Below, in pieces: positions 3,425 to 44,029 of a stretch of DNA of 64,000 nt. Each line of letters starts with the position of its first letter. The first letter of the stretch is position 1. A program made the position numbers and the translations under genes. The stretch is taken from contig NZ_CP058579.1 in NCBI RefSeq assembly GCF_013402875.1, forward strand, positions 1 to 64,000. The letters run 5' to 3'. The notes under the pieces were generated by a model, which was not told the origin of the DNA, made no database searches, and saw only the letters and a list, made by a program, of their open reading frames with translations. Origin of the DNA: Halorarum salinum (GTDB lineage Archaea > Halobacteriota > Halobacteria > Halobacteriales > Haloferacaceae).

Positions 3425-4857
3425 TGTCGGACGGCTCCTTTGAGCGTGACGTCGGCGGCGTAGTATCGGTACCAGAGGTACGACGTGATCATGACCGCGA
3501 CGCCGACGCCGATCGACGCGGGTTGCATGAACGCGATCAGGCCGAAGCTGGCGAGCGCGCCGACGCCCGGCACCACCGGATAGCCCGGCACCCTGTAGCT
3601 GGGGGCGTACCAGGTCGGGTCCCGCCGCCGCAACACGATCATGACGACGCAGATCAGGCCGTACATGATCAGGTGGAGGAACGACGCGACCTCGGCGAGC
3701 AGTTCGACCTGACCGGTCGCGACGAGGACGAGGATCGGGCCGCCGGCCGCGAGCAGCGCGACGTGTGGCGTGCCGTACCGGAGGTTGATCTCGCTCGCCC
3801 GCCGGGGGAGCAGGGCGTCGCGGCTCAGCGCGTACACCGCCCGCGAGGCGCTGAGGATCGACGCGTTCGCGCTCGAGAACGTCGCCAGCAGGCCGGCACC
3901 GAGGATCGCGATCGCGCCGGGCAGCCCGAGGAACTCGCGGGCGACCTCGACCATGGCCGTCTCCCCGAACCGGCCCAGCCGGTCCGCTCCGAACGCGCTG
4001 GTCGCGACGAAGATCGTCACGACGTAGAACGCGGCGACGACGAGGACCGAGCCGACCATCGCCAGCGGGAGGTTCCGGCTCGGCCGTTTGATCTCCCCGG
4101 CGACGGTCGCGACCTGTGCGAACCCCAGATACGAGGTGAAGACGAGCGCGGCGGTCGTCAGGACCGGGAAGTGCCCACGGGAGAAGAACGTCTCCGGGAC
4201 GGCTCCGCCGCCGAACACGCCGACCGCGTCGAGGACGCCGTACGAGAGGAAGCCCGTGAGGACCACGAGGAGGACGCCGACCACGCCGTTCTGCAGTTTC
4301 GCGGTGTTCTCGGTCCCGCCGATGCTCAGCGCCGTCAACCCCGCGCCGAACAGCAACCCGATCGCGACGACCGGATCGAACGAGAGCGCGACGCCGACCT
4401 CGGCGAGGACGGCGGTCGCGTAGTGTCCCAGGCCGACGAGGTAGAACGCCGAGGCGAACACCAGGCCCAGCCACAGGCCGAGGCCGACGATCGCGCCGTA
4501 CGCAGTGCCCATCCCCCGCGAGATGAAGTAGTAGCCGCCGCCGCTCCGCGGCATCGCCGTGGCCAGTTCCGAGGTCGGGAGCGCCACCAGCAACGCGATC
4601 ACCCCGCCGATGGCGAACGAGAGGGCCGCAGCGGGACCGGCGTTCGCGGCCGCCAGCCCCGGGAAGACGAAGATCCCCGCGCCGATCATCGTGCCGATCC
4701 CGATCGCCAGCCCGCCGACGAGCCCGATCGTCCGTTCGAGTTCGACGTCGTCGTCGTGGACCGTGGCGTCGTCGGTCACCGCGTCCGGCTCCTCCGCGGG
4801 AGCCTCGCCGGCGACGTTCCGGCCCGACGTCCCCACGCCGACGCGCTGATCGGACAT
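3421..4857 (-). CDS. APC-family amino acid permease
   Basis: This is a 478-residue APC-superfamily transporter. After an acidic N-terminal tail, the first helix carries the typical glycine-rich motif ([15 protein letters not shown]), followed by about eleven further hydrophobic helices. I chose ATG 4857 (MSDQRVG) because the frame upstream encodes 34 low-complexity residues with no second promoter. The gene shares an ATGA overlap with the downstream UspA gene, so the two form one operon. Substrate is probably an amino acid or amine; it cannot be refined. Confidence 0.88.
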
Positions 4858-12995: not shown

Positions 12996-13377
12996 GGTCG
13001 ATCTGAACCATCATCCACCAGTGGGAGCTCGAGTGACGCGTTCGAGAGCGGCGTCTTGACCGGGACGTCACCCCCCGCTACCGGCCCTATGAGCGCCGGG
13101 TATTGTCCGGACAACGTGGGCGAAGTAGAGGAATCGGTCGGAATTGTGGTGATTTCTGCTGACGTTGCGACAGGTCGTGTTGTTTTTCAGCGCCCGGAGA
13201 TGGGCGAGGCACTCGCTCGAACCTCCATTGCGATGATAGGTTTCGGGAGCCATGCTCGCTAGACGTCGCGAATCGGTCATTGACGAGATTGAATCACGTC
13301 GCAGCGATCAGTGAGGACACCTCGTTTCCTGAAGTTACTTATCCCCGCTCTGCCTTTCGACGGTCGCGAGGTGATGT
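12996..13377. other. About 380-base gap, nothing recognised
   Basis: Open frames of 60-70 codons exist on both strands, but they have no family features or promoter. I regard this as non-coding or decayed sequence. Confidence 0.4.
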
Positions 13378-13419
13378 GCATTAACGACATCGACAATCGG
13401 CATCCTGATTCGGGGTATC

Positions 13420-14004
13420 GTGCTCGGATTCTCGATTGCAGCCCCGGTCGGCCCGATCGGAGTCCTATGCATCCAGCGAACGCTTTCTAAAGGCCGGCTT
13501 TCGGGCTTCAGTAGTGGACTCGGAGCAGCGTCAGCTGACGCCGTGTATGGAGCGATCGCAGGGTTCGGTATCACCGTGGTATCGTCGCTCCTGCTTGATC
13601 ACCAGACCGCGATACGTGTCTGTGGTGGGGTCCTGTTGTTGTATCTCGGAGTCCAGTCGTTCCGTGCCGAGCCAGCAGAGACGCCAGTGGCCACCTCAGA
13701 CGTACATGGACTTGCCAGGGACTACGGCTCGACGTTCCTGTTGACGATTACCAACCCCGTGACGATCCTCGCCTTCATTGGCATCTTCACCGGACTCGGA
13801 GTCGGCATGTCCGGCGAGTACGCTGAGGCCGCCATACTGGTCAGTGGTGTCTTTCTCGGCTCGACCCTCTGGTGGCTCACGCTGAGTATTAGTGTGAGTC
13901 TCTTCCGTACACGATTCACTCGCTCAGTCATGCGCCGAGTGGCACAACTGGCGGGTGTAGTTATCGTCGGATTCGGATTGCTCGCTCTTCGGAGCGCGAT
14001 GTAA
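13420..14004 (+). CDS. LysE/RhtB family exporter
   Basis: This is a 194-residue membrane protein with about six helices. The family's N-terminal signature is present (FSIAAPVGPIGVLCIQRTLS) and a second conserved stretch reads TITNPVTILAFIG. LysE/RhtB proteins export amino acids or related small molecules. The frame is open upstream to 13378 and encodes a plausible extra N-terminus (LTTSTIGILIRGIV) without ATG. An ATG sits one base out of frame at 13376, so the real start may have been damaged by an indel; GTG 13420 is the best remaining choice. Confidence 0.75.
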   Translation: MLGFSIAAPVGPIGVLCIQRTLSKGRLSGFSSGLGAASADAVYGAIAGFGITVVSSLLLDHQTAIRVCGGVLLLYLGVQSFRAEPAETPVATSDVHGLARDYGSTFLLTITNPVTILAFIGIFTGLGVGMSGEYAEAAILVSGVFLGSTLWWLTLSISVSLFRTRFTRSVMRRVAQLAGVVIVGFGLLALRSAM

Positions 14005-14157
14005 GCATATCCAAACCCTTCGATTTGATCAAGTCTGAGCCAACGGTTCAGGCGCCGTCAATAGAGCGGATACTCTGGAAGCTGTACGCATCCTCTGTAT
14101 TCAACAGCCAGTTCCGCTCACAATCGCGGACGTCCATGCCCCCGCGTGAAATCGGGG

Positions 14158-14310
14158 AGCCCTGTTCCACGTTATGAACGACACATTTGATGACGAGTTC
14201 GCGGAACTGCTTCCATCAGACGCGTGACCGCACGAACGCACCGAACTTCTGCTTGGTCGCGGCATTCACTGACTCGTTCATGTCTCGCTACTGGTAGGGA
14301 TTGCCATCAA
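14158..14310 (-). mobile_element. Transposase C-terminal remnant (IS5-like haloarchaeal element)
   Basis: The minus strand reads NPYQ, stop, RDMNESVNAATKQKFGAFVR, stop, WKQFRELVIKCVVHNVEQG. This resembles the C-terminal end of transposases of haloarchaeal IS5-like elements. Two in-frame stops replace what look like Ser and Trp codons, so the piece is dead. No inverted repeats were found. Confidence 0.6.
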
Positions 14311-14746
14311 ATATCTCGTGGCAGCAGGCGTCCTCCTCGTGGCGGCGATGGCACTCGTCAGCGCTAGCCAGGCGTGATTCGCTCGAAAAGACGTCGCACA
14401 GGAGGCCCCGAACGATGCAACTGATCGAATCCGAGGTCGACGCACCGCCAGAACTCGTCAGCGAGGTTCCCACCTACCGGGAACTCCCACATCGCCGCAG
14501 CCAGTGCCGACCGCCACGAAGGGGGCGACGTCGTGCTCGACATCGAGCGCGTCCACTGCTACCATGGCGGACCCGTGGAGGGGACCGGCCGGCATCGACA
14601 GCGGCGAGCAGGAGTCCGACCCGTACCACGAACAGCGTCGCGAGGAGTATCTCAACCGGCGTGAGCTACCCGGGCCATTCGATGTGCCCGAGCGCTTCAC
14701 GCAGCGTGAGCGCCGGGAAGACGAATCCAGGTCATTTAACCTATAG
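14309..14746 (+). pseudogene. Unassigned remnants ahead of the arsR-like gene
   Basis: Near 14309-14380 one frame encodes a membrane helix and ends (IKYLVAAGVLLVAAMALVSA). At 14563-14746 another encodes a polar, acidic tail (REEYLNRRELPGPFDVPERF) ending just before the palindromic promoter. Both look like C-terminal pieces of genes whose main parts are gone. I cannot name the families. Confidence 0.3.
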
Positions 14747-14748
14747 GT
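14737..14748. promoter_or_regulatory. Perfect 12-base palindrome at the ArsR gene promoter
   Basis: AACCTATAGGTT is its own reverse complement and abuts the TATA box TTTAATATAT (14747-14756), which is 24-33 bases before ATG 14780. This is where a dimeric ArsR repressor would block the basal transcription factors, so autoregulation of the operon is likely. Confidence 0.65.
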
Positions 14749-14779
14749 TTAATATATTGCGGGCCGTACGCTTAACCGG

Positions 14780-15118
14780 ATGGTTGAACGACAGCCGGAC
14801 GACCTGGATCTCGACGCGGTCTTCAAGGCGCTGGGCCACCCGATCCGTCGAGAAATCATCGAACAGCTCGCCGACGGGCCAAAGAGCGTCAGCGAGCTGG
14901 CCGAACCTCACGACGTGTCGCTGGCAGCGGTCTCGAAGCACTTGCGCGTGCTGGAGGACGCGGGCCTGCTCGACGTCGAAGAGGACGGCCGGGTTCGACG
15001 GTGTCACCTCGACGCTGCGCCGCTGAGCGACGTGTTCGGGTGGCTGACCCGGTACCGCGTCCTCTGGGAGGACCGCTTCGACGCGCTGGCCGACCATCTG
15101 GAGAACGAAGACCGATGA
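14780..15118 (+). CDS. ArsR-family winged-helix repressor
   Basis: The protein has 112 residues. It follows the ArsR pattern: KALGHPIRREIIEQLADGPK, then the helix-turn-helix (SVSELAEPHDVSLAAVSKHL) and the wing (GLLDVEEDGRVRRCHL). It has no metal-binding cysteine pair (CxC), so it is the metal-independent subgroup that usually stands with SRPBCC genes. Its stop overlaps the next start (ATGA), so it heads an operon with the SRPBCC and reductase genes. Confidence 0.88.
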   Translation: MVERQPDDLDLDAVFKALGHPIRREIIEQLADGPKSVSELAEPHDVSLAAVSKHLRVLEDAGLLDVEEDGRVRRCHLDAAPLSDVFGWLTRYRVLWEDRFDALADHLENEDR

Positions 15119-16035
15119 CAAACACCGACACGATCGATGAGACCAAGATCGAAACGACCGACACGACGCTCACCCTCCGCCGGACGTTCGACGCGTCGCG
15201 CGAACGGGTGTGGCAGGCGTTCACCGACCCCGAGGAGCTCGAACGGTGGTTCGTTCCCGACGGCATGACGGCGGAGGTTCACGCCCAGGAACTCGAATCC
15301 GGTGGCGACATGTCCATCTCCTGGACCGACGGGGAGAATCGCATCGACAACGAGGGAACCTACGTCGAAGTCGTTGAGCACGAACGCCTCGTTACTGGTG
15401 AGGAGACCGAAGCGGGAGAGCTACGTGTCATCTACGAGTTCCAAGATGTTCAGGATGGGACGGAAGTCGTCGTCACCCAGGAGTTCCCCGGAGAGGTGCC
15501 CGACGGTGCCGCCGAAGGATGGACGGGAATGCTCGAAAACCTGGCGGCGCTACTTCAGGAATCCGGCGCAGATCCCACCGAGGCCGACGAACGAAGCATG
15601 ACCGTGAGTCGTGTCGTCGAAGCATCGCCCGAGCGAGTGTACGAGGCGTTCCTCGATCCCGACGAACTCGCCCAGTGGTTGCCACCGACCGGCTTTTCGG
15701 CCGAGGTCCACCACCTAGAGGCCGAGGAGGGCGGGACGTTCCGCGCCACGTTCACCGGAGAGACCGAGGAGTTCGCGGACTACGGCCACTCCTTCGGGGG
15801 CACCTACCGGGAGCTGGTTTCCGGTGAACGCATCGTCTACACGGAATCGTTCGAAACCGACGACCCGGCGATGGCCGGCGAGATGACGGTGACGGTCACC
15901 TTCGAGACGGTTCCCGCGGGGACTGAGATCATCGTCCGCCATGAGGGATTCCCCGAGGCCACCTCCCCAAGCGATGCCAACGAGGGATGGACCGACTCGC
16001 TCGGGAACCTCGCGGACGTCGTCGAGGAGGCGTAA
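15115..16035 (+). CDS. Tandem two-domain SRPBCC (AHSA1) protein
   Basis: This 306-residue protein holds two AHSA1-type SRPBCC domains in tandem. Each begins with the family pattern (TLRRTFDASRERVWQAFTDP and SRVVEASPERVYEAFLDP) followed by a tryptophan-containing turn (ELERWFVPDG, ELAQWLPPTG). The fold makes a deep hydrophobic ligand pocket. In bacteria, ArsR-SRPBCC pairs are common, but their ligands are mostly unknown. Translation is coupled to the ArsR gene by an ATGA overlap. Confidence 0.85.
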   Translation: MTNTDTIDETKIETTDTTLTLRRTFDASRERVWQAFTDPEELERWFVPDGMTAEVHAQELESGGDMSISWTDGENRIDNEGTYVEVVEHERLVTGEETEAGELRVIYEFQDVQDGTEVVVTQEFPGEVPDGAAEGWTGMLENLAALLQESGADPTEADERSMTVSRVVEASPERVYEAFLDPDELAQWLPPTGFSAEVHHLEAEEGGTFRATFTGETEEFADYGHSFGGTYRELVSGERIVYTESFETDDPAMAGEMTVTVTFETVPAGTEIIVRHEGFPEATSPSDANEGWTDSLGNLADVVEEA

Positions 16036-16037
16036 CC

Positions 16038-16634
16038 ATGAGGAAACTCGTCGTCAGCGAGTTCCTGACGCTCGACGGCGTGATGCAGGCCCCGGGCGCC
16101 CCCGACGAGGACACCGAGGGCGGGTTCGAGCACGGCGGCTGGCAGCTGCCGTACTTCGACGACGTGGACCCGGCCGTCGCCGACGGGCTTGCCGCCGCGG
16201 ACGCGCTCGTGCTCGGCCGGAAGACGTACGAGATCTTCGCGTCGTACTGGCCGACCGCGAGCGAAGATGAGCCCTTCACCGAGCGGATGAACAGCATCGA
16301 CAAGTACGTAGCTTCCCGGACGTTGGACGCGGTCGACTGGCAGAACTCGACGCTCCTCGAGGGAGACGTGGCCGACGCGGTCGCCGAATTGAAACGGGAG
16401 CCTGGCGGTGACCTCGTAGTCATCGGCAGCGGGGAGCTAGTCCAGACGCTCATGGCCAACGACCTCGTCGACGAATACCTACTCATGGTCCACCCGCTGG
16501 TGCTCGGCACCGGCAAGCGGCTCTTCCGGGAGGGCGAGCCAACCGGTATGAAACTCGTAGAGGTCGAGACGACCGACTCGGGCGTCGTCGATCTCACCTA
16601 CGAGCCGACGGGGAAAGCGGAGGGAACCCAATGA
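16038..16634 (+). CDS. RibD C-terminal / dihydrofolate-reductase-like protein
   Basis: The 198-residue protein starts MRKLVVSEFLTLDGVMQAPG and carries LVLGRKTYEIFASYWP, IGSGELVQTL and HPLVLGTGKRLF. These are the standard marks of the RibD C-terminal domain family (YyaP/YwjB-type), which has a dihydrofolate reductase fold and binds NADPH. True folate or riboflavin activity is not expected; the physiological substrate is unknown. ATG 16038 follows the SRPBCC stop by two bases, and its own stop overlaps the next start. Confidence 0.85.
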   Translation: MRKLVVSEFLTLDGVMQAPGAPDEDTEGGFEHGGWQLPYFDDVDPAVADGLAAADALVLGRKTYEIFASYWPTASEDEPFTERMNSIDKYVASRTLDAVDWQNSTLLEGDVADAVAELKREPGGDLVVIGSGELVQTLMANDLVDEYLLMVHPLVLGTGKRLFREGEPTGMKLVEVETTDSGVVDLTYEPTGKAEGTQ

Positions 16635-17122
16635 CGGACGATGCGACGAACGCAGAGGCCGAACTCGAACCCAGCGAAAACCAACTGACGATCCGGCGGA
16701 AGTTCGACGCACCACGCGAGCGGGTGTTCGAGGCCTGGACGGACCCGGAGCAGGTCGACCAGTGGTGGGGTCCGGACGGATTCACGACCACGACGAACGA
16801 GATGGAGGTGCGCCCCGGCGGCGTGTGGCGGTTCGTGATGACCAGCTCCGACGGCGACGAGCATCCGAACCGTATCGAATATGACGAGGTCGAGGAACCC
16901 GAACGTCTGGCGTACACGCACGGCTCGCCCGACGACCCCGAGCAGTTCCGAGTCGTCGTGACGTTCGACGATCGAAGCGATAGCGAGACCGACCTCGCCA
17001 TGGAGATGTGCTTCTCCTCGGCGGAGGAACTAGACGAGGCCGTGGAGTTCGGCGCCGACGACGGCGCGAAGCAGACCCTGGGCCGCCTCGCGGATCACCT
17101 AGCGGCAGGGAGTTCGGTGTAA
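16631..17122 (+). CDS. SRPBCC (AHSA1) domain protein
   Basis: The 163-residue protein is a single SRPBCC domain with the usual signature (RRKFDAPRERVFEAWTDPEQ and VDQWWGPDGFTTT). It overlaps the preceding reductase gene by four bases. A 5' copy of this gene at nearly identical DNA sequence recurs at 19350, so it was part of a duplication. Confidence 0.85.
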   Translation: MTDDATNAEAELEPSENQLTIRRKFDAPRERVFEAWTDPEQVDQWWGPDGFTTTTNEMEVRPGGVWRFVMTSSDGDEHPNRIEYDEVEEPERLAYTHGSPDDPEQFRVVVTFDDRSDSETDLAMEMCFSSAEELDEAVEFGADDGAKQTLGRLADHLAAGSSV

Positions 17123-17125
17123 CCG

Positions 17126-17623
17126 ATGATCGATGACGAACTCGACGACCAATCGATTGAAGGAGAGACCACTGAACTGAGACTTACTCGCACGTTCGAC
17201 GCGTCGCGCGAGCGGGTATGGGACGCGTGGACCGATCCAGAGCAGGTAGCGAAGTGGTGGGGGCCGGAACGGTTCACCACCACGATCCACGAGATGGACG
17301 TTCGCCCGGGTGGCGTCTGGCGATTCGTCATGCATGACCCCGACGGTATCGATCATCACAACACGTTTCCCTACGACGATGTCGTCGAATTCCAGCGCCT
17401 GGTCTACACCCACCCAGGTGAGGCAGATCGCCCTCATTTTCAGGCGATGGTGAACCTCGACGACGGAGCGACCGGCGGAACGGAACTCGCCTTTCGGATG
17501 GTGTTCGACACCGTGACTGCACGTGAAACACTCGAGGAACACGGCGGGGTCGAAGCTGCACGGCAGACCCTCGACCGACTCGCCCGGCACTTGGAAGACC
17601 GAGCAAACGGGGAGGAGGCGTAA
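17126..17623 (+). CDS. SRPBCC (AHSA1) domain protein
   Basis: The 165-residue protein belongs to the same family as its left neighbour (RTFDASRERVWDAWTDPEQV, then KWWGPERFTTT) and is separated from it by three bases. Its opening codons (MIDDELDD) recur at 19607 in the degraded copy of this region. Both genes probably arose by tandem duplication and then diverged. Confidence 0.85.
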   Translation: MIDDELDDQSIEGETTELRLTRTFDASRERVWDAWTDPEQVAKWWGPERFTTTIHEMDVRPGGVWRFVMHDPDGIDHHNTFPYDDVVEFQRLVYTHPGEADRPHFQAMVNLDDGATGGTELAFRMVFDTVTARETLEEHGGVEAARQTLDRLARHLEDRANGEEA

Positions 17624-17624
17624 C

Positions 17625-18296
17625 ATGGGCGCCGTTTTCGTAGACATGTCGATGTCGCTTGATGGGTACATCGCCGGCCCGAACGATAGCCAGGAGAACC
17701 CCCTGGGTGATGGCGGCGAGCGCCTCCACGAGTGGGTCTTCGAGTTGCAGAGTTGGCGGGAGCGACAGGGACTCGACGGCGGGGAGACGAATCGAGACTC
17801 GGAGATCGTCGTGGAGTCGTTCGAGACCGTCGGCGCCTTCGTGATGGGTCGGCGGATGTTCGACAACGACGACGGTCCGTGGGGAGACGACCCGTTCGAA
17901 GGGCCCTGGGGAGACGACCTGCCCTTCGGCGCGCCAGTGTTCATCCTCACGCACCATGGACGGGAGCCGCTCGAGACGTACGGCGGGACGACCTTCCACT
18001 CCGTCACTGAGGGAATCGAACGCGCCCTCGAACGGACCGAGGAGGCCGCTGGCGACGGGGACGTCCGAATCTCGGGGGGTGCGGACGTCGTCCGCCAATA
18101 CGTCGAGACGGGACTCGTGGACGAGATTCAGCTTCAAGTCGTTCCTGTACTACTTGGTGACGGCATCCGATCGTTCGAGCACCTCGGTACCAGGCCGATC
18201 GAACTGGAACGAACGAGGATTGTGGGGTCACCCAACGTGACGCATCTCCGATTCCGCGTCGTGAACGAAGGAGCAACTGAAAGCGAAGACCGATGA
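17625..18296 (+). CDS. RibD C-terminal / dihydrofolate-reductase-like protein
   Basis: The 223-residue protein shows the family start (VFVDMSMSLDGYIAGPND), the NADPH-site region (GAFVMGRRMFDNDDGPWGD), the glycine motif ISGGADVVRQYV and the end VVPVLLGDGIRSFEHLG. It is somewhat longer than the copy at 16038 and only distantly similar, so the two may act on different substrates. It begins two bases after the SRPBCC stop and overlaps the next, truncated gene by four bases. Confidence 0.85.
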   Translation: MGAVFVDMSMSLDGYIAGPNDSQENPLGDGGERLHEWVFELQSWRERQGLDGGETNRDSEIVVESFETVGAFVMGRRMFDNDDGPWGDDPFEGPWGDDLPFGAPVFILTHHGREPLETYGGTTFHSVTEGIERALERTEEAAGDGDVRISGGADVVRQYVETGLVDEIQLQVVPVLLGDGIRSFEHLGTRPIELERTRIVGSPNVTHLRFRVVNEGATESEDR

Positions 18297-18406
18297 CGGC
18301 CGACGAAACCAACGACGAGATCGAAGCGGGCGAGAGGAGCCTGACCATCCCACAAACGATCGAGGTGTCACCGGAGTGCGCCAGCGCCCCGAGGAGGGGA
18401 TCGTAG
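18293..18406 (+). pseudogene. Truncated SRPBCC gene: first 37 codons
   Basis: ATG 18293 overlaps the reductase stop and encodes MTADETNDEIEAGERSLTIP, the usual acidic leader of the SRPBCC genes in this array, then stops after 37 codons. The domain itself is gone. Confidence 0.55.
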
Positions 18407-19154
18407 TGTTGCTTGATGACGAGGTCGCCGTGATCTACGGCGCAGGCGGGTCGATCGGCGGTGCCGTCGCTCGATCCTTCGCCAGCGAGGGAGCTGACGT
18501 CTTCCTCGCGGGTCGCACCGCGGCATCGCTCGAAGTGGTCGCCGAGGACGTCCGCTCGGACGGCGGCGAGGCGGACACCGCCGTCGTCGATGCCCTTGAC
18601 GAGCAGGCCGTCGACGAGTTCGTCGATGCGGTGGTCGAGGAGACCGGGCGTATCGACGTCTCGTTCAACCTGATCGGAATCGGGACGTCCAGGAGCCGCT
18701 GACCGAGATCCCGGTCGAGGATTTCATGCAGCCGATCACGACCGCGATGCGGACGCAGTTCCTGACGACGAGGGCCGCCGCCCGGTACATGATCGAGCGC
18801 GAATCCGGGGTTATCCTGACGTTCGGTGGCTCGAATCCCGACGCACCCCCTGGGACGGGCGGTTTCAAAGTCGCCCTCGACGCGATGGAAGGACTCCGTC
18901 GACAGTGGGCCGTCGAACTTGGATCGCATGGCATCCGTGCCGTCTCCCTGAAAACGGGCAGTGTACCAGAGTCCATCCCGGACGACGTCGAACACCGCGA
19001 CGGGATCGCCGCTGCGACGCGGGAGGCAACCCTGCTGGGAGAAGCAGCGACACTGGAGGACGTGGGGGACGTTGCAGCCTTCGTTGCCTCCGAGCAAGCC
19101 CGCACCATCACCGCCACGGAAGTCAACATCTCCTGCGGCGCGATTATGGAGTAG
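18406..19154 (+). pseudogene. Frameshifted short-chain dehydrogenase/reductase
   Basis: The N-terminal half (VIYGAGGSIGGAVARSFASEG, with a Rossmann glycine motif) is joined near 18683 to the second half (QEPLTEIPVEDFMQPITTAM onward) by the apparent loss of one G in CGGGACG. The C-terminal half ends like an SDR with the ATEVNISCGA motif. The catalytic YxxxK is replaced by a region reading GTGGFKVALD, with a lysine but no tyrosine, so even a repaired gene would be an atypical SDR. GTG 18406 or TTG 18409 would be the start. Confidence 0.7.
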
Positions 19155-19218
19155 AGTAACACCAGAAGCGGGAGCGAGTCGTTCGACGACCTCACCGAGG
19201 ACGGACGACGGTCGAGAA

Positions 19219-19353
19219 ATGGAAACAACCACGGTAAGAACGACAATCACCGCCGAATCGGACGAACAAGCAATCGTCGAGGGCCCCGGCGTCACGCACC
19301 TCCTCTATCGCGTCGACGGCAGGCAGGGGGAAATGGAGTACGACGAGCCATGA
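19219..19353 (+). pseudogene. C-terminal remnant of a RibD/DHFR-like gene
   Basis: The 44 codons from ATG 19219 end in EGPGVTHLLYRVDG, matching the tail of the reductase at 17625 (GSPNVTHLRFRV). The stop again overlaps the next SRPBCC start by ATGA, so the gene order of the array is preserved in this decayed copy. Confidence 0.55.
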
Positions 19354-19594
19354 CTAACGACACAGAGATCGAAACGAGCGAACGAAGCCTGACCGTCCAG
19401 CGACGGTTCGACGCGCCGCGCGAGCGCGTCCGGGAAGCGTGGACGGACCCCGACCAGGTCGATCAGTGGTGGGGTCCGGACGGATTCACGACCACGATCG
19501 ACGAGATGGAGTCTGGCAGTTCGTGGTGGTCGGCCCCGACGGCGGGGCGAAGCAGACTCTGGAGCGTCCCGCCGATCACCTAGCGGCGGAATAA
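19350..19594 (+). pseudogene. SRPBCC gene with internal deletion
   Basis: The first 50 codons match the intact gene at 16631 almost base for base (RRFDAPRERVREAWTDPDQV, then DQWWGPDGFTTT). Most of the domain is then missing, and in another frame the sequence resumes at GAKQTLERPADHLAAE, the normal C-terminus. About 80 codons are lost. Confidence 0.75.
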
Positions 19595-19606
19595 CCGATA
19601 TGGCCA

Positions 19607-19645
19607 ATGACTGACGACGAACTCGACGACCAACCGATCGCACGT
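19607..19645 (+). pseudogene. Start fragment of another SRPBCC gene
   Basis: The 13 codons MTDDELDDQPIAR match the start of the gene at 17126. The sequence then switches abruptly to a FAD oxidoreductase fragment at about 19645, so this is a deletion or recombination junction. Confidence 0.5.
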
Positions 19646-20092
19646 GGCTGCACAGCGTTCACCTGCTCAACCATCTCGGGGTCAGGAACATCGGTGACGA
19701 TGACTTCCTCGAAGCGGCTCGCCATCATGTCGATACGTGCGGAACTGATCGGCACCAAGGAGAGGAAATCACCGACGCCGAACCCACCGACGGAGGCTTC
19801 ACGGTCGGGACCGATCGCGACCGGTACGACGTGAAGTACGTCGTTCTCGCCACGGGACGGTCGCGCGACCTCGCCGATCCGCTCGGCTTCGAGTTCGACG
19901 AGCACGGTTTGCGTCGACGAGGGCAGGGAAACCACGGTCGGAAACGCCCATGCCGCCGGGTGGATCGCGCGAAAGGACGGGATCCGGGTCGCGATCCTCG
20001 TCGGCGTGGGGTCCTCAGCCGGACTGGACATCCTCAGTAAAGAACGAGGACGGCCGTTCCACGGCTTCGACGCGTCGGAGAACGCGAGGTGA
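19645..20092 (+). pseudogene. Remnant of a FAD-dependent (thioredoxin-reductase-like) oxidoreductase
   Basis: The frame encodes WLHSVHLLNHLGVRNIGDDD, then KYVVLATGRSRDLADPLG with the pyridine-nucleotide-disulfide-type ATG motif, then breaks near 19905. In a third frame it ends AGLDILSKERGRPFHGFD. These are the C-terminal two thirds of a haloarchaeal FAD/NAD oxidoreductase family; the N-terminal FAD-binding GxGxxG is missing. Confidence 0.7.
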
Positions 20093-20094
20093 AC

Positions 20095-20521
20095 GTCCGG
20101 TCGCCGTCACCGGAACGCCGGCGGCTCGACCGGCACGGGTGAACGTGTACCCGACGAAGGACCGAGTACGGCACGTCCGGTCGCCCACGCTCGTGACGAC
20201 GCGGTCGACCGCGTTCGCCGCGACGTAGTCGAGAATCACTTCGGCTGGGGCACCGTGAAGCACGTCGATCGTGGACGCGCCCTCTCGGTGCCGGCGCGCT
20301 GCACGGTCGGTCGACCCGTTCTTCGGGGGTCGTTCGATGCGGTCACGCTCGACCGGGCCGCCGCCGTCGTCACGTTCCACGATCACGCCCGAGTCGAGAC
20401 GGTCGAGAACGTCGATGCGGTGAACCGTCGCCGGGGGCGTCTCGGCGAAGACGAGCCACCACTCCGCGGTCCGTCTCGCTCGTTCACCGCCGTCCGGGAG
20501 GACGATCGGCTCCGATGACAT
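20095..20521 (-). pseudogene. Degenerate UspA-family protein
   Basis: The minus-strand frame opens at ATG 20521 and shows UspA features: PIVLPDGGERARRTAEWW at the start, LDRLDSGVIVERDDGGG, and GAPAEVILDYVAANAVDRVV. The nucleotide-binding loop is replaced by TSVGDRTCRTRSFVGYTFTR and lacks the G-x2-G-x9-G pattern. It runs into the end of the oxidoreductase remnant. Probably inactive. Confidence 0.55.
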
Positions 20522-29703: not shown

Positions 29704-30348
29704 TTAAAAGATTTTCTCGCCGAGTTCGCCATGCTCCAGGGTTTTCGAGATGAGATTCTCACACTCCTCTGTCTTCCATTTGATCCGTTCCAGTAGACTG
29801 ACGTCCCGAATTCGTTCACGTTTCGCATCATCCATCGAACATCCGAGGAACTCAGACAGCTCGAGGAGTGGGATGATCGTCACTCCAAATTCCACTTCTG
29901 CCTGCCATCCGATGTCGTTTTCAACCGTTTCGTATACAGACTTTGCACGGCGATAGTGTTCGATCGGATCGTCATTGTCCATGAAAGTCGCAACGTCACC
30001 AAGAAGTTCTTCACATAGTCCCTCATGAGCGGTTCCCCATGCGGATGAAGATGCAAGTTCACTGGTACTGATCTCTCTGATTGCTGCATTTGCCCTCGTA
30101 GCCACGTATGTTGACCGCTGGTCACCTGAAAGGCGGTAACAGAGAATCGAACCGAGAGCGTACGTGACAGACTGGCCGAACTCTGGGGCGGACATATACT
30201 GATCGTGTTCGCTATCTCGATACTGATGGGCCCACATGAGATGACCACTCGCGGCCGCATCGTAGAGGAACGCCGCGTCGTTGTAACTCCGTTCTTCGAC
30301 GCGTGATCTGGCTTCTTTCGAATATTCGCGAGGATCTCTTCTATGCAT
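29704..30348 (-). CDS. Helical protein, candidate immunity partner of the giant protein
   Basis: The 214-residue protein is soluble, all-helical in character and has no signal peptide. Segments such as YNDAAFLYDAAASGHLMW and YRRAKSVYETVENDIGWQ look like TPR-type helix pairs. Its ATG overlaps the stop codon region of the 1924-residue repeat protein by eight bases, so the two are translationally coupled. Small helical proteins in this position are often immunity proteins of polymorphic toxins. That role is my inference from context; the family is not recognised. Confidence 0.5.
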   Translation of the reverse strand: MHRRDPREYSKEARSRVEERSYNDAAFLYDAAASGHLMWAHQYRDSEHDQYMSAPEFGQSVTYALGSILCYRLSGDQRSTYVATRANAAIREISTSELASSSAWGTAHEGLCEELLGDVATFMDNDDPIEHYRRAKSVYETVENDIGWQAEVEFGVTIIPLLELSEFLGCSMDDAKRERIRDVSLLERIKWKTEECENLISKTLEHGELGEKIF

Positions 30349-33300
30349 AGTGGGTTAGCTCACTGGTCGGCGAGCCATAAACTCTGTTTGCCAAGTTCCA
30401 TCTCTGGATATATTCTTGGACGCTCTCTTTCGTTTGTCCGAGCCTCACAGAAGTACTTACGGTCCATTTCGTTCCATCAAACCGAACTCGGACTGCGACC
30501 CATTCCCCATCTATATACGCGATGTAGTGGATATTCCGTCCCTGCTCCCAGATCTGGGCGGGATTACGAATAACCCGTTCTACCTGATCATAGTCACTCA
30601 GATGGCCGTCTCGGCCAACTGGATGGCGATTACTACGGTCAATTTCAACTCCCCTTCCTTGCGGATCCCGGATTAACTCACCAGCGGAGATGATTACTCC
30701 ATCTCCTATCCTCAGAGCGATTCTAACTCCATCATCAGTTTCTCCAATAACATCGGTAACTTGACCATCACGGTATGTGACCGAATCGGGTGTTCGGAGT
30801 ACCTCCTCGATGTCGTCTTGATCATGGATTCCAGGCGTCCGCCTGATATACTCCCAGCCAAATCCGCGTTCGTTCCCCGGTCCGGGCGCTTCATAGACCG
30901 CCCCGTGCGGCCATCGAATCGTGAACGGTGCATAGTCGACATGGAACGTCTCGATCGTTCCAGTTGCGGGAACAGCCCCACCAACAGGCACCGAAAGTAC
31001 GTCGCCCTCGAATCCTTCCGCGGGCTGGTTGTAGTCAGTATATCCCAAGACGGCAGTACCGCCGATTGCGACAACGGTTGCGCCGGCAGCGGTGTACGGA
31101 TTGGAATAGACCATTCCGACTGCCCCGCTGCCTGCTCCCACCTGGATCTCTGAGGAGACGACGACTCCGGCGGAACCCCCAGTGAGGATCTGCCTCGGCG
31201 AAGAGACGGCGGCTTTGATGTCCTGATCTTCGGGAACCGTGACGGTCTCGTTGGGGTCGACTTTGACCGACATCCGATTACCGGCCGCGTCCGTCGCGTT
31301 CACGTAATAATACTCGGGTGGCTCGTCGAACCATCCGTGCTGGTCCAGTGACCGGTTGTACGTGGAGACGTGCTGAGTTCCTTCAATGCGTTCGCTCAGG
31401 AGTCGCGGTGGCTGTGACACCGTGAACGGGTCCCCGTACAGCGGGTCGTAATGTGCCCTGATGGTAAGCGAGTCGATCTCGCTGTGATCGGATACTCTGA
31501 TCGTGACGTTCTCGTTAAAGTCCCCATCAGTCCAATCGACCGGTGACCCGGAGTAGATCAGCACGTTCGGAACGCGGCTGTCGACCAGCGGTCGCTTATC
31601 GACCTGATCGATGTAGCCGTCATCGTCAGTATCAGCGTCTAGCGGGTCCGTTTTCCACACAAGCTGTTCGGCCCCGTCGTGAACACCATCATCGTCACTG
31701 TCGACTTCGGTCGGGTCGCTGTGCAGCACTCGGTACGTGCCGTAGTCGTTCTCGGCAGCGTCACCGAGTTCACGGCTATCCGAGAGCCCGTCCCCGTCCG
31801 TGTCGGCCGAATACGGACTCGTGTAGATGGTCTCTCCGGTTCCGAGCGTGAAGCCGTCCGTCTCTTCGGAGTTGAGCAACCCGTCGCCGTCGCTGTCGCG
31901 GGTCACGGAGACGGTCACGTCGCTCACGCGGAGCGTCGCCCCATTCGCGGCGTCGAACCGGATCGTAATCTCCTCCCCCGCCACGTCCGAGAGATCCACC
32001 TCTCGTGTGACCGGGCCGCTCGTCCCACTGGTGAGGTCGAACAGTTCGCGGTCACCACTCGCAGTCTCGACGACCGCACTCGCGTCCGAGGAACGGTCTG
32101 CCGTCGTGTCGCCCTCGACGGTGACGCGCACGGTCGCGTCGACCGCGTCGTCCGCGAACGTGACGTCGCGTTCGAGCGTCGAGGTCGTGCCGCTGGAGAG
32201 CTGCGCGAACGTGTTCAGCCCGGCGGGGGTGATACAGCCCCACGGGTAACAGAGGTCTGGGTCGTCGTTGTCGCCGTCATCGCCATCATCCCCGCCGTCG
32301 CTGCCGTCATCGTCGCCACCGTCGTTCCCGTCATCATTTCCACCATCGTCATCAGTAGGCGCGTCCGAGTTCACGACCGCGTCCGTACCGTCGGTGGAGA
32401 CATCGCCGAGCGCGGTCCAGTCGTCGAGGTCGGAGAACCCGCCGTCGATGATACGCCGTTCCCGGTCCGACTCACCCGAGCCGCCCGACCCGGAGTCACC
32501 AGACCCGTCAGATCCGTCGTCGACCGTGAACTGGGTGCCGTACCGCTGGCCGTTGAAGACGATGTACACGGAGAAGTGCGGCGTCGTTGCGCTGACTGTG
32601 TTGTTCTTCGCGTCCACCGTCGAGGGCACCCGCTCGAACGTCTGTGCGTCCGGGTCCCATCGGAACACCGCCAGCTCCGACTCGTCGCTCACGTCCGATT
32701 CGTCGTACGACAGCGTGAGCATCGCCCGCTCGAACTCGCGCTGAGTTCCGAATTCGAGCGGTTTCGAGGCGGCGACTGATTCGACCGCGTCGCTGGTGAG
32801 GATCGCGTCGGTACTGTTTCGGACCGTGACCGAGTCGGCGACGTTCCCCTCGCCCGTGATAGAGACGGACGCGCCGACGGTCTCGTTCATCGTGCTCGTG
32901 GTGAACGTCTCCTCGCCGTCCGCCACACCGTCGCCGTCAGAATCCGCACTGAGCGGGTCGGTTCCGAGGTCGAGTTCCTCGTCGTCACGCAATCCGTCGT
33001 CGTCGGTGTCGGGCGAGCGCGGGTCGGTCTCGTACTCGTTCAGTTCGGCAGAGTCGGTCAGCGTGTCGAAGTCCGTGTCGTTCGTGGTCGAGTCGGTCCC
33101 GGCGGCCTCCTCGGCTGCCGTGTCGAGACCGTCTCCCTCGTGGTCCTCCCGCGCGTCCAGGACACCGTCCCCGTCGCTGTCCGCGCTGAGCGGGTCGAGA
33201 ACCGAGAAGCGAACCTCGAAGCCATCGCCCACGCTATCGCTGTCCGTGTCGTTGTCGAACGGATCCGTACCGAACACCTCCTCGTAGTGGGCCCGGACCT

Positions 33301-36115
33301 GATCGCTGTCGAAGTCCTCTAACCCGTCCGGGATCTCGTTGGCCGATTCGTTGGCGCTCGTAACCGAGGAATCGCTGTCGTTCGACAGCGGGTTCGTCCC
33401 CGTCGTGTCGACCTCGTAGGCGTCCGTGAGACCGTCCCGATCCGTGTCCGAATGGAGCGGGTCCGTCCCGAGGGCCTGCTCGCGAGCGTTGCTCAGCAAG
33501 TCGTTTTCGAGGTCCTCCGCCGTGTCACGGACGCCGTCGCCGGCCTCGCTGGCGTTGGTCCCGGCGCTGTCGCTGTCGACGCCGACGGGCGAGGTGAGCG
33601 ACCGTTCCACCTCGAAGAAGTCCGTCAGCGTGTCGTCGTCCGTGTCGGCGTCGGTCGGACTGGTCCCCGCGGCCTGTTCGTCGATGTTGACAAGCCCCTC
33701 CGCGTCGGGGTCCTCCAACGCGTCACCCGTCCCGTCACCGTCCGTATCGTTCGAGAGCGGGTCGAGCGTCTCGTACGTGAACTCGAACCCGTCGACCAGC
33801 CCGTCGTCGTCCGAATCCGGGTCGAACGGGTCCGTCCCGACGTCGAACTCCAGGGCGTTCGAGAGCCCGTCACCGTCGAAGTCCTCGCTCCCGTCGATGA
33901 CGCCGTCGCCGGCCTCGTCGGGAGCCGTCACGCTGGAGTCGCTGTCGGGCACCAGCGGGTTCGTCAGCGTCGTATTCACCTCCTCGTAGTCGGTGAGGTT
34001 GTCCGCGTCGGTATCGAGGTCGAGCGGGAGCGTCCCGTACCGCTGTTCGTCGACGTTCACTAGCCCCTCCGCGTCGGGATCCTCCCGGCCGTCGGGCACC
34101 CCGTCGCCGTCGGTGTCGACGTTGAGCGGGTCGACCGTCTCGAAGCGGTGCTCGAAGAGGTCGGTCAGGTCGTCACCGTCCGTGTCGGGGTCGAACGGAT
34201 CGGTCGAGACGTTCTGCTCGATTCTGGTCACCAGCGCCTCGCCGTCGAAGTCCTCCTCGCCGTCGGTGACCCCGTTCCCGGCCTCCGAGCGGTTCGTCCG
34301 CGTCGAGTCACTGTCCGCGAGAGTCGGGTTCGTGCGCGTCGTCCGCACCTCGTAGGCGTCGGTCAGTGCGTCGCCGTCGGTGTCGGCGTCGGTGGGAACG
34401 GTTCCGTTCGACTGCTCGTGGAGGTTGACCAGTGTCTCGTTGTCCGGATCTTCCCAGGCGTCCGCCATTCCGTCGCCGTCCGAGTCCGCCGCCGTCGGGT
34501 CGATGGTGTCGTAGGCGTACTCAAACGGATCCCACAGCCGGTCGTCGTCCGTGTCGGCATCGAACGAGTCCGTCGAGATGTTCGCCTCCAGCGCGGTCTC
34601 GAGCGTGTCGTCGTCGAAGTCCTCTGCGCCGTCGGGCACCCCGTCTCCCGACTCGTTCGCGCCCGTCCGGTTCGAGTCGCTGTCCGCGATCGTCGGGACC
34701 GTCGCCGTCGTGTCGACCTCGTACCCGTCGCCGAGGCGATCGCCGTCAGTGTCCGCGACGTTCGGGTTTGTGCCGTACTCCTGCTCGCGGACGTTGGTGA
34801 GCCCATCGGGTTCGATGTCGTCCTCCCCGTCCGGCACGCCGTCACCGTCGGTGTCGGCGGCGAGCGGGTCGAGGTTCCCGTACCGGAGTTCGAACCAGTC
34901 GGTCAACTCGTCGTCGTCCGTATCGGCATCGAACGGGTCGGTGCCGGCGCGGTACTCGACGGCCGTCGGAATCCGGTCGTCGTCGAAGTCCTCGGCCCCG
35001 TCGACGATTCCATCGTCGGCCTCCGATTCGTTCGTCTTCGGCGTGTCGCTGTCGGTGTCGAGCGGCGCCGTGCCGACGACCGTCCGCTCGTAGGTGTCGG
35101 GCAGGCCGTCCGCGTCGAGCAGCAGCGTGTCGGTTCCGGTCGATGGGGCTGGCGTGGCGTCACTACCGTCGCCGTCGGATCCACCGGCGCCGTCGCCGTT
35201 TCCGGCGTTGCCGTTGCCGTCTCCAGCGTTACCGTTTCCAGCGTTCCCCTCGTTCGAACCTCCCTCACGCACACCCAATCGCTTGTTCCCGTCGGTCGCG
35301 CTGACGGTGATCTCGTTGACCGGTTTCGACAGCGTGAGCGTCGCGTTGAACGTCCCCGTCGCGAGCGGACCGGTCCCCCGCTCCAACTCGACCGTCTGCT
35401 CGGTCCCGTCCGCGAACCGGACGGTCACCGTCCGCAACTCGAACGTCCGGACGTCGCGTACGGTCCCGTTCAGCCGGTAGGTGATCGAGTCGACGTGTCG
35501 CGGGTCCTCCCGCGTCCGGATAGCCACGCGCGGCGTGACCGCCTCGTCCATGATGTCGAGTGCGGCCTGGGCGTTCAGCCACGCGCGGCGATAGTGCTCG
35601 AGGCGGGCGACCGGGTTGTCGCCGCCGAACGCCAGCGCGTTTCGCGCCTGCGAGAGGTGCCGCTCGACGGCCGCCTCGTCGTACGTGACGTTCGGGTCCG
35701 CAGCGAGTTCCTCGTGTGCCGTCTCTGCGTCGGCGAGCGCGGTCCGCGCGAGTCGCTCGTCCGAATCCGCGATCCCGTCTGCGACCGCCGGCGCGTGGCT
35801 CTGCGTACGGGTGACGACCCGCTTGTCGGTGGCAAACACCGAGTCGGTGACGCGGGTCGGCCCGACGTAGACCGCGAGCGATCGGTTGAGTGCGGTCAGG
35901 AGGTCGGCCTTCCGATCGGGCGGCCAGTTCAGCGTCGCGTTCTGCAGGTCGTCGATGGCGGCCTCGCGAAGTGTGAGAGAGTCGGTTGAGGGGGAAGGGG
36001 ACTGGACCGCCCGGGATTCGTCCGGTCTGGACGATGCAATTCCAACGGTCGTGGCGCTCAATATGAGGAGAATAGAGAAGAAAATCGCAGTAAACTGTTG
36101 TCGACCGACATTCAT
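30341..36115 (-). CDS. Giant secreted thrombospondin-3-type repeat protein with toxin-like C-terminus
   Basis: The protein has 1924 residues. A Sec-type signal peptide (FTAIFFSILLILSATTVGIA) opens it. Residues 30-280 form a helical and beta-sandwich region, followed by a Gly/Asn linker. Calcium-binding repeats (DTDGDGVPDG type) fill residues 367-1070 in units of exactly 123 residues, and more repeats follow near 1440-1560. Residues 1646-1692 are hydrophobic and glycine-rich, like a membrane-translocation segment. Two tandem, related modules follow: DIEEVLRTPDSVTYRDG at about 1769 and QVERVIRNPAQIWEQG at about 1844. Such modules resemble RelE/EndoU-fold nuclease toxins; that match is weak and inferred. 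It is probably a surface stalk carrying an effector. Confidence 0.65.
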   Translation of the reverse strand: MNVGRQQFTAIFFSILLILSATTVGIASSRPDESRAVQSPSPSTDSLTLREAAIDDLQNATLNWPPDRKADLLTALNRSLAVYVGPTRVTDSVFATDKRVVTRTQSHAPAVADGIADSDERLARTALADAETAHEELAADPNVTYDEAAVERHLSQARNALAFGGDNPVARLEHYRRAWLNAQAALDIMDEAVTPRVAIRTREDPRHVDSITYRLNGTVRDVRTFELRTVTVRFADGTEQTVELERGTGPLATGTFNATLTLSKPVNEITVSATDGNKRLGVREGGSNEGNAGNGNAGDGNGNAGNGDGAGGSDGDGSDATPAPSTGTDTLLLDADGLPDTYERTVVGTAPLDTDSDTPKTNESEADDGIVDGAEDFDDDRIPTAVEYRAGTDPFDADTDDDELTDWFELRYGNLDPLAADTDGDGVPDGEDDIEPDGLTNVREQEYGTNPNVADTDGDRLGDGYEVDTTATVPTIADSDSNRTGANESGDGVPDGAEDFDDDTLETALEANISTDSFDADTDDDRLWDPFEYAYDTIDPTAADSDGDGMADAWEDPDNETLVNLHEQSNGTVPTDADTDGDALTDAYEVRTTRTNPTLADSDSTRTNRSEAGNGVTDGEEDFDGEALVTRIEQNVSTDPFDPDTDGDDLTDLFEHRFETVDPLNVDTDGDGVPDGREDPDAEGLVNVDEQRYGTLPLDLDTDADNLTDYEEVNTTLTNPLVPDSDSSVTAPDEAGDGVIDGSEDFDGDGLSNALEFDVGTDPFDPDSDDDGLVDGFEFTYETLDPLSNDTDGDGTGDALEDPDAEGLVNIDEQAAGTSPTDADTDDDTLTDFFEVERSLTSPVGVDSDSAGTNASEAGDGVRDTAEDLENDLLSNAREQALGTDPLHSDTDRDGLTDAYEVDTTGTNPLSNDSDSSVTSANESANEIPDGLEDFDSDQVRAHYEEVFGTDPFDNDTDSDSVGDGFEVRFSVLDPLSADSDGDGVLDAREDHEGDGLDTAAEEAAGTDSTTNDTDFDTLTDSAELNEYETDPRSPDTDDDGLRDDEELDLGTDPLSADSDGDGVADGEETFTTSTMNETVGASVSITGEGNVADSVTVRNSTDAILTSDAVESVAASKPLEFGTQREFERAMLTLSYDESDVSDESELAVFRWDPDAQTFERVPSTVDAKNNTVSATTPHFSVYIVFNGQRYGTQFTVDDGSDGSGDSGSGGSGESDRERRIIDGGFSDLDDWTALGDVSTDGTDAVVNSDAPTDDDGGNDDGNDGGDDDGSDGGDDGDDGDNDDPDLCYPWGCITPAGLNTFAQLSSGTTSTLERDVTFADDAVDATVRVTVEGDTTADRSSDASAVVETASGDRELFDLTSGTSGPVTREVDLSDVAGEEITIRFDAANGATLRVSDVTVSVTRDSDGDGLLNSEETDGFTLGTGETIYTSPYSADTDGDGLSDSRELGDAAENDYGTYRVLHSDPTEVDSDDDGVHDGAEQLVWKTDPLDADTDDDGYIDQVDKRPLVDSRVPNVLIYSGSPVDWTDGDFNENVTIRVSDHSEIDSLTIRAHYDPLYGDPFTVSQPPRLLSERIEGTQHVSTYNRSLDQHGWFDEPPEYYYVNATDAAGNRMSVKVDPNETVTVPEDQDIKAAVSSPRQILTGGSAGVVVSSEIQVGAGSGAVGMVYSNPYTAAGATVVAIGGTAVLGYTDYNQPAEGFEGDVLSVPVGGAVPATGTIETFHVDYAPFTIRWPHGAVYEAPGPGNERGFGWEYIRRTPGIHDQDDIEEVLRTPDSVTYRDGQVTDVIGETDDGVRIALRIGDGVIISAGELIRDPQGRGVEIDRSNRHPVGRDGHLSDYDQVERVIRNPAQIWEQGRNIHYIAYIDGEWVAVRVRFDGTKWTVSTSVRLGQTKESVQEYIQRWNLANRVYGSPTSELTHYA
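32908..35017 (-). repeat. Higher-order repeat of 369 bases encoding calcium-binding stalk
   Basis: Units start at residues 367, 490, 613, 736 and 859 of the giant protein (DNA near 35017, 34648, 34279, 33910 and 33541). The step is exactly 123 residues (369 bases) four times, and the fifth unit is shortened to about 67 residues. Each unit carries several DxDxDGxxD calcium loops. Equal spacing in the 123-residue register indicates amplification of a whole supramodule, not of single loops. Confidence 0.75.
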
Positions 36116-42910: not shown

Positions 42911-44029
42911 ATGCAAGGGATCTCATTAGTGGATGTTGGCATTGAATGGTTTAAGGATGCAATTGACACTGTCACGGAGTGGTTCAGTACAGGAATCACG
43001 AGTGGCTATTCAGAACTATCAGAATCACTTCTAAGTACTCCCACTCCAGAAACGGAGCGGTCATTTGTATTTGGAACACCTACCAATGAACCTTGGATTG
43101 CGCTTCACGATGCACTCGTGGGTGGTGAAATTCTTCTTGTCGCATTGCTTCTGCTAATTTCCTGTGTGCAGGGCCGACATACTGTCCGTATCTTCAACAT
43201 TGGAAGCAGATATGAATCACGGAAGACGAAGCGAACAGCGTGGACTGGGGGATTTCTCATAGTAACTTGGTACTGGGTCGGCGTACTCTCTCTCTATCTA
43301 GTGAATGGGTTCACAATTGCCCTGATTCCAGATGTCTCGGTCGTTTCAAGCGCAATGCTTGATTTTATGCAAGTATCAGTAGTCAACCCTGCACTCGCAC
43401 TTTCTCTCGCTGCCCTTGGAGGGGTTGCGATGTGGACTCTCCAAGCCCTCCTGTTCATCCGTGAAATCCTCCTCTACGTGTATCTCTACGGCATGCCGCT
43501 CGCATTCGCGCTAATGTTTGGGAATCTCCCCGTGGTGTCACGGATAGCACGGTCACTGAGCCTCAAGTTCGTGCCGCTCGCCGTGATGCCGCTCCCCGTC
43601 GCCGTCCTGTTCAAGGCGTACGCACTCCTCTTCAGTGAGGGAACCGGCGTTCCGTATGCCCCACAGAGCGCGTTTCTCAGTTATCTGCTCGCGGTCTCCC
43701 TGCCAGTTCTGGCCGTGATCGTCGTCTGGAAGCTATTCAAATACGCCAGTCCACTGACGGCAACCGTCATCGGATCGGCGACCAGCGCTGCAGTGACCGC
43801 CGGCGCAGTCATTACCGCAGGTTCCGTTGCTGGCCCGTACGTCGCCTCAACCGCAGTGAAGTGGGGGCCGAAAGCCGCTGCCGGGCAGGCGATGGCCCAG
43901 CGAGTTACCGGTGACTCAAACGACTCCGATAATGGAGGGACGAACCAGGATAACGTCGTAACCGACGCCTACGGACAGCGCGGCATCCCGTCGTACCGTC
44001 GAACGGAGAATGACCCCGGATACTACTGA
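42911..44029 (+). CDS. VirB6/TrbL-like membrane protein of the transfer cluster
   Basis: The 372-residue protein has six or more helices (VGGEILLVALLLLISCVQ, GGFLIVTWYWVGVLSLYLVN, ALALSLAALGGVAMWTLQAL, AVSLPVLAVIVVWKLF and others) and a glycine/alanine-rich region near residue 290-330, followed by a disordered tail. This is the layout of VirB6/TrbL-type channel proteins. The first 500 bases are AT-rich and the rest is GC-rich, so the gene is a mosaic. Confidence 0.55.
   Translation: MQGISLVDVGIEWFKDAIDTVTEWFSTGITSGYSELSESLLSTPTPETERSFVFGTPTNEPWIALHDALVGGEILLVALLLLISCVQGRHTVRIFNIGSRYESRKTKRTAWTGGFLIVTWYWVGVLSLYLVNGFTIALIPDVSVVSSAMLDFMQVSVVNPALALSLAALGGVAMWTLQALLFIREILLYVYLYGMPLAFALMFGNLPVVSRIARSLSLKFVPLAVMPLPVAVLFKAYALLFSEGTGVPYAPQSAFLSYLLAVSLPVLAVIVVWKLFKYASPLTATVIGSATSAAVTAGAVITAGSVAGPYVASTAVKWGPKAAAGQAMAQRVTGDSNDSDNGGTNQDNVVTDAYGQRGIPSYRRTENDPGYY

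Follow-up and report, generated by a model that had tools for sequence, protein, structure and literature searches.

What does a single ArsR-type regulator control when it heads a crowded row of SRPBCC and RibD-type genes in a haloarchaeon, and by what DNA signal would it do so? These questions are raised by a gene array in Halorarum salinum, lying within the first 64,000 nucleotides (here called the window) of contig NZ_CP058579.1, which is 4.02 Mb long and taken as the chromosome. The array, on the plus strand at 14780-18296, comprises six intact genes, ArsR, SRP2, RibD1, SRPa, SRPb and RibD2, all fully open. A preliminary description had proposed an array of SRPBCC and RibD-type paralogs under one ArsR; gene calls and Pfam agree that it is real, and its coordinates hold. 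We found that the start of the ArsR gene carries a conserved pair of candidate operator sites, O1 and O2, and this two-site operator, with its half at the start codon, is the part most worth testing. As to function, we lean, with moderate confidence, toward the view that a non-metal ArsR autorepressor would control hydrophobic-ligand-binding SRPBCC proteins and NAD(P)H reductases for detoxification or resistance.

The preliminary description had taken a perfect 12-base palindrome as the operator. The palindrome, AACCTATAGGTT, occurs once, but the window holds 27 perfect palindromes of this length, a chance-level number, and the palindrome taken alone was rejected as evidence for an operator; the signal lies in a conserved pair of sites, of which O1, containing the palindrome, is the upstream member. 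An alignment of 14 haloarchaeal loci, from which the Mesorhizobium locus was left out because it has no such pair, showed AAC-N6-GTT twice in every locus (14/14), once at -42 or -41 and once at -6. O1 overlaps a TATA-like element, TTTAATAT/TTAAATA, about 28 bases ahead of the start codon, where the TATA box of a leaderless haloarchaeal transcript would be expected. A search of 391 genomes of the class for the pair gave 43 sites in 39 genomes (four having two sites each), as compared with 2 sites for a reversed control pattern. All 43 sites are ArsR starts, two of them of broken genes. The gene after ArsR encodes an SRPBCC protein at 42 of the 43 sites, with an ATGA overlap at 37, and the operons hold at least two SRPBCC matches at 18 sites, RibD at 14 and SDR at 7, so that the arrangement does not deserve the term "unusual for archaea" once applied to it. 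Within a set of 51 pattern matches, one that is not an ArsR start (L022, minus strand, outside the 43) was read as the palindromes seen backwards. By these sequence comparisons, the conserved pair of inverted repeats exceeds chance. Codon 3 of ArsR, left unspecified by the search pattern, was GAA in all 43 genes with Glu at that position, among 46 kept after exclusion of broken ArsR genes and identical copies, as compared with 179/450 of the other Glu codons in the same genes. Counts of this kind are inflated by kinship among the genomes. H. salinum has the extended operator at a single location in its genome, and the regulator therefore probably acts locally.

An ArsR protein search returned 24 homologues in 18/146 genomes, with up to three per genome. 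Both exact sites were present at 17 of these (one a broken gene), one exact and one degenerate site at four, and the remaining three were divergent. At the loci of these three (~64% identical), O1 takes the form AAGC-N4-GCTT, with ATGCTTAAG at the start codon, and the pattern of this divergent clade was found at exactly those three sites, in 2/382 genomes. The predicted recognition helix reads AISQHL in the divergent clade versus AVSKHL, a change of K to Q (K53 in SKHL). The joint change at O1 and O2 is the best evidence suggesting that both sites are read by one protein. The AAC-N6-GTT pair was not seen in the three bacterial loci examined, two from Streptomyces and one from Mesorhizobium. 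Upstream of ArsR in the Mesorhizobium locus (L032, ~4540-4640) there are two copies of another inverted repeat, AAGGCA-N2-TGCCTT, and paired operators may therefore reach beyond the haloarchaea.

A classical ArsR/SmtB operon for resistance to metals or arsenic is another reading of the array, supported by the NCBIfam HTH_metalloreg match of the ArsR protein, 78 bits over a cut-off of 55. The classical metal motif of that family is Cys-based. Among 48 aligned ArsR proteins, however, a single Cys (C75) is conserved, in 42/48, with no Cys pair and hence no Cys-based metal site, and neither a metal transporter nor an arsenate reductase was found by Pfam among the array genes. In Mycobacterium tuberculosis, Rv2034 showed no response to the seven metals tested (PMC3338718; this and the papers on toxicity and TA-like systems below are cited from excerpts). 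We rejected the metal-regulator reading for want of a metal motif and regard it as very improbable. The ArsR protein also matched Csa3/CasR models in PADLOC, which we read as a shared helix-turn-helix; the SRPBCC and RibD proteins had no PADLOC match, and anti-phage defence was rejected.

The whole genome contains five AHSA1 matches, every one inside this array. The SRPBCC proteins belong to the AHSA1 family (PF08327), with Pfam scores above cut-off and a Bet v 1-like fold. The structure model of SRPa had a mean predicted local distance difference test score (pLDDT) of 89.2, with the best folds being 1xuv (template modelling score, TM, 0.84) and M. smegmatis Ms6760 (3uid, TM 0.82), in line with the hydrophobic-ligand theme put forward earlier. 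The family name AHSA1 would point to Hsp90 co-chaperones with Aha1 function. A search with PF00183, though, gave 0 matches in the H. salinum genome, while the control search found Hsp90 in 5/14 genomes; this reading was rejected and is strongly disfavoured, its probability being close to nil. RibD1 and RibD2 both contain a RibD_C domain according to Pfam. A far stronger RibD_C match lies elsewhere in the genome (C1:2169048; 168 bits versus 80 and 65 for the array copies), a hint that neither of these copies is the riboflavin reductase of the genome and that they do not serve riboflavin synthesis.

The ArsR–COG3832 module has so far been called both a toxin–antitoxin (TA) candidate and a resistance operon, and the choice has been unsettled. 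A TA-like pair, in which an SRPBCC toxin is bound and repressed by ArsR, has the support of its listing as a candidate TA-like system in PMC2701414, where a resistance module is nevertheless proposed as the more plausible role, and of a title cited in PMC9416677 that calls Msmeg_6760 and Rv2035 toxins. In the excerpted text of the latter paper, by contrast, expression of MSMEG_6760 in M. smegmatis did not stop growth, whereas that of ArsR did, and the S. maltophilia COG3832 protein is described as non-toxic both in E. coli and in its own host (PMC7650669). Moreover, multi-paralog arrays with reductases are unlike a toxin pair, and SRP2 scored 33 bits against the Rv0910 toxin model, whose cut-off is 100. 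We consider the TA-like reading weaker than detoxification or resistance and rather improbable. Another proposal makes the SRPBCC protein part of the sensor, the ligand-loaded form binding ArsR and lifting repression. The ATGA coupling of ArsR and SRPBCC at most signature sites is consistent with this, and the Msmeg_6760 structure paper reportedly describes a physical MSMEG_6762–MSMEG_6760 interaction; on the other hand, the ligand might be bound directly by the ArsR proteins of this group, and we think a sensor role unlikely.

Detoxification or resistance is favoured because of the fold matches, the non-toxic SRPBCC partners, the lack of response of Rv2034 to the metals tested, the absence of Hsp90 and the stronger RibD_C gene elsewhere. 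Further support comes from the recurrence of RibD at 14/43 signature sites and in 2/2 Streptomyces loci, and from a RibD1–SRPBCC fusion in Natrialba asiatica. The fusion is a single open reading frame of 358 aa (locus L024, 5898-6974) from one draft genome, in which an error is possible. We infer that an ArsR dimer without metal sites would bind the two inverted repeats, one at the TATA box and transcription factor B recognition element and the other (O2) over the start codon, the presumed 5' end of a leaderless transcript. Occupation of O1 and O2 would block the polycistronic operon of ArsR itself until some non-metal signal, probably a small molecule of hydrophobic or reactive character, frees the repressor. 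The array genes would then be translated serially through their ATGA overlaps; the SRPBCC proteins may bind the compound, and the RibD_C enzymes, as well as SDR where intact, may reduce it with NAD(P)H, the outcome being detoxification or resistance. What the haloarchaeal version adds is a compact DNA signature that finds members of the module genome-wide, an operator that appears to constrain the codons with which the ArsR gene begins, and arrays that carry enzymes; together these open the ligand and the chemistry to experiment in a tractable archaeal host, for instance Haloferax volcanii.

With regard to its origin, the array is better described as a mosaic than as a simple tandem expansion. 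In a tree of SRPBCC domains of at least 130 aa (72 domains, 70 distinct, from the window and 34 chosen loci), the four intact window domains did not cluster together; each fell among domains from other genera. Tandem duplication of one SRPBCC was therefore rejected, and the paralogs appear to be old. The nearest DNA relatives also differ by segment, as expected of a recombinant mosaic: N. asiatica is nearest for ArsR and SRP2 (97-98% identity), genome G316 for RibD1 (95%) and SRPa (91-96%), and genome G016 for RibD2 (88%); SRPb reaches no more than 74% over most of its length, and the SDR gene and the remnants behind it are nearest to N. asiatica at 87-96% (SDR equally to Haladaptatus pallidirubidus). 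N. asiatica appears to be listed in another family than H. salinum, and since its ArsR DNA is nevertheless 98% identical, lateral transfer between these lineages is likely.

The array of N. asiatica is the closest counterpart among the similar operons that we found in many haloarchaea. Its order is ArsR, SRPBCC x2, RibD1, SRPBCC, SDR, RibD remnant, SRPa, SRPb, RibD2; unlike in H. salinum, SDR is intact, RibD1 is fused to the next SRPBCC, and the SDR block precedes SRPa–SRPb–RibD2. In the window, the SDR block comes after SRPa–SRPb–RibD2 and is itself followed by another SRPa/SRPb pair, which is decayed. The decayed tail had been recognised earlier as a RibD tail with SRPBCC remnants, which are present, but the frameshifted SDR gene was overlooked, and the second of two supposed decayed SRPBCC genes amounts to no more than the opening ~34 bases of an SRPb-like one. 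Over 63-70 bp, the SRPBCC stub ahead of SDR is 81-83% identical in DNA to N. asiatica and H. pallidirubidus, and a stub stands in this place in N. asiatica too. The SDR pseudogene is 89.6% identical to intact SDR genes in N. asiatica and at locus L028, the RibD tail 90% over 91 bp to the N. asiatica remnant, the decayed SRPa-like gene 87% to N. asiatica SRPa, and the 56 bp containing the SRPb-like stub 96% to N. asiatica; in H. pallidirubidus the RibD gene that follows SDR is intact. The simplest account is that recombination of related arrays put the SRPa–SRPb–RibD2 set ahead of an older SDR block, which then decayed. Going further, haloarchaeal arrays might be a recombining store of diverged ligand pockets, in which distinct SRPBCC subfamilies, long diverged and so kept separate, move as cassettes among chromosomes and plasmids while the two-site switch ahead of them stays the same, giving species-specific sets for local toxic compounds, with a ligand-loaded SRPBCC reporting to the shared ArsR; we offer this as a speculation of low probability. 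A LysE-type translocator region at 13220-14265 has 92.6% DNA identity to a segment of an H. pallidirubidus plasmid, where it lies just downstream of the SRPBCC array, whereas in H. salinum it lies upstream of ArsR.

Several observations weigh against a functioning detoxification or resistance operon under a two-site switch. In the divergent clade O2 has a poor left arm, only two genomes show the joint change, and the four ArsR homologues with a degenerate site keep just one exact site among the 24. Modelling gave no usable structure for RibD1 (mean pLDDT 42.5), and RibD was not found in 29/43 signature operons, so that the module does not depend on reduction. The ratio of nonsynonymous to synonymous substitution rates (dN/dS) versus N. 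asiatica is 0.65-0.70 for ArsR, SRP2 and RibD1, calculated from few substitutions, and these genes therefore give no sign of recent purifying selection; the decayed tail likewise points away from it. The same ratio, the SDR frameshift, the truncated SRPBCC genes and the broken ArsR genes heading related operons elsewhere (L083, L092) would suit a decaying, laterally acquired island without present function. Such an island is doubtful in our judgement, as the six leading genes are open throughout, dN/dS is 0.16-0.28 for SRPa, SRPb and RibD2, and both predicted operators are kept. Each part of SDR has a dN/dS of 0.19.

SRPa had matches in 6/60 genomes of the family (E<=1e-15) and in 328 plasmid records (E<=1e-5). 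ArsR followed by SRPBCC occurs on plasmids of Salinigranum rubrum (apparently of the same family as H. salinum), Halostagnicola larsenii, H. pallidirubidus, Halocatena marina (two), Natronococcus sp. CG52 and Natrinema sp. SYSU A 869, as well as in Natrinema gelatinilyticum (unannotated, mapped here) and on the N. asiatica contig; all but the last come from a plasmid collection and give no gauge of chromosomal frequency. Two Streptomyces plasmid loci (NZ_CP108851 and NZ_CP108024) both have ArsR–SRPBCC–dihydrofolate reductase family, with the same three-gene order and near-zero gaps, but have one copy per gene and no AAC-N6-GTT pair in the 130 bases upstream; at the Mesorhizobium ArsR–SRPBCC locus the reductase is divergent. 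The third gene of the Rv2034–Rv2036 operon of M. tuberculosis is not known to be RibD. In the excerpted text of PMC3338718, this operon resembles the window array in having an ArsR autorepressor, overlapping genes with SRPBCC second and a palindrome with a 4-base spacer, and differs in its half-site, CCGTAAGT, in the one site described at its own promoter, and in that Rv2034 also activates other genes. ArsR–AHSA1 operons are described in Frankia too (excerpt of PMC4531530). The array of H. salinum shares with the ArsR–COG3832 module of Makarova et al. 2009 (PMC2701414) an ArsR without metal motifs, an AHSA1 gene directly after it (ATGA overlap at 15115-15118) and a patchy, multi-copy spread; unlike that module, it is haloarchaeal and adds several SRPBCC domains, RibD and SDR genes and a conserved two-site operator. 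It is thus an enlarged, shuffled form of a known module, real and informative, but not unprecedented. Among open-licence PMC papers we found none that deals with ArsR–SRPBCC operons of haloarchaea or with the operator in front of them, which does not prove that such papers are absent.

Features of the array and its candidate operators are listed in Table 1. The junctions from ArsR to the SRPBCC stub are -4, +2, -4, +3, +1 and -4, and another -4 junction lies at 19350, giving the seven close junctions claimed earlier (4-base overlaps or 1-3 base gaps).

Table 1. Positions of the candidate operators, genes and remnants of the array in the window.
Feature	Positions	Strand	Remarks
Operator O1 (candidate)	14735-14752	+	TTTAACC-TATA-GGTTTAA; includes 12-base palindrome; right arm overlaps TATA-like TTTAATATAT
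Operator O2 (candidate)	14772-14788	+	TTAACC-GGAT-GGTTGAA; spans ArsR start codon
ArsR-family repressor	14780-15118	+	112 aa; Pfam HTH_5 1.3e-13, HTH_20 1e-15; nearest solved structure 3f6o, 2.2e-21
SRP2, SRPBCC with two AHSA1 domains	15115-16035	+	306 aa; Pfam AHSA1 4.6e-52, two stretches
RibD1, RibD_C/DHFR-like reductase	16038-16634	+	198 aa; Pfam RibD_C 1.3e-22
SRPa, single-domain AHSA1 SRPBCC	16631-17122	+	Pfam AHSA1 4.1e-32
SRPb, single-domain AHSA1 SRPBCC	17126-17623	+	Pfam AHSA1 3.7e-27
RibD2, RibD_C reductase	17625-18296	+	223 aa; Pfam RibD_C 3.8e-18; resembles 3kgy, 2e-41
SRPBCC 5' stub	18293-18406	+	stop codon overlaps SDR start region
SDR-family pseudogene	18406-19154	+	frameshift near 18690-18702; adh_short 1e-14 and adh_short_C2 2.5e-18 on its two parts
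RibD tail remnant	19262-19352	+	joined to following remnant by ATGA at 19350
Decayed SRPa-like gene	19350-19583	+	AHSA1 positions 1-30 of 125 only
5' stub of decayed SRPb-like gene	19607-19640	+	~34 bases

Behind the tail, at 19640-20110, lie frame-broken stretches whose conceptual translations resemble, by eye, the remnant of an NAD(P)/FAD oxidoreductase; two pieces had no Pfam match. Elsewhere in the window, a 1924-aa protein encoded on the minus strand at 30341-36115 contains TSP3 repeats and a weak C-terminal PBECR2 nuclease-like match below cut-off. From ~36 kb the guanine plus cytosine content drops to 0.48-0.58, and this part includes a gene for a TrbL/VirB6-like conjugal transfer protein (42911-44029; 1e-175), which together suggest an integrated conjugative element.

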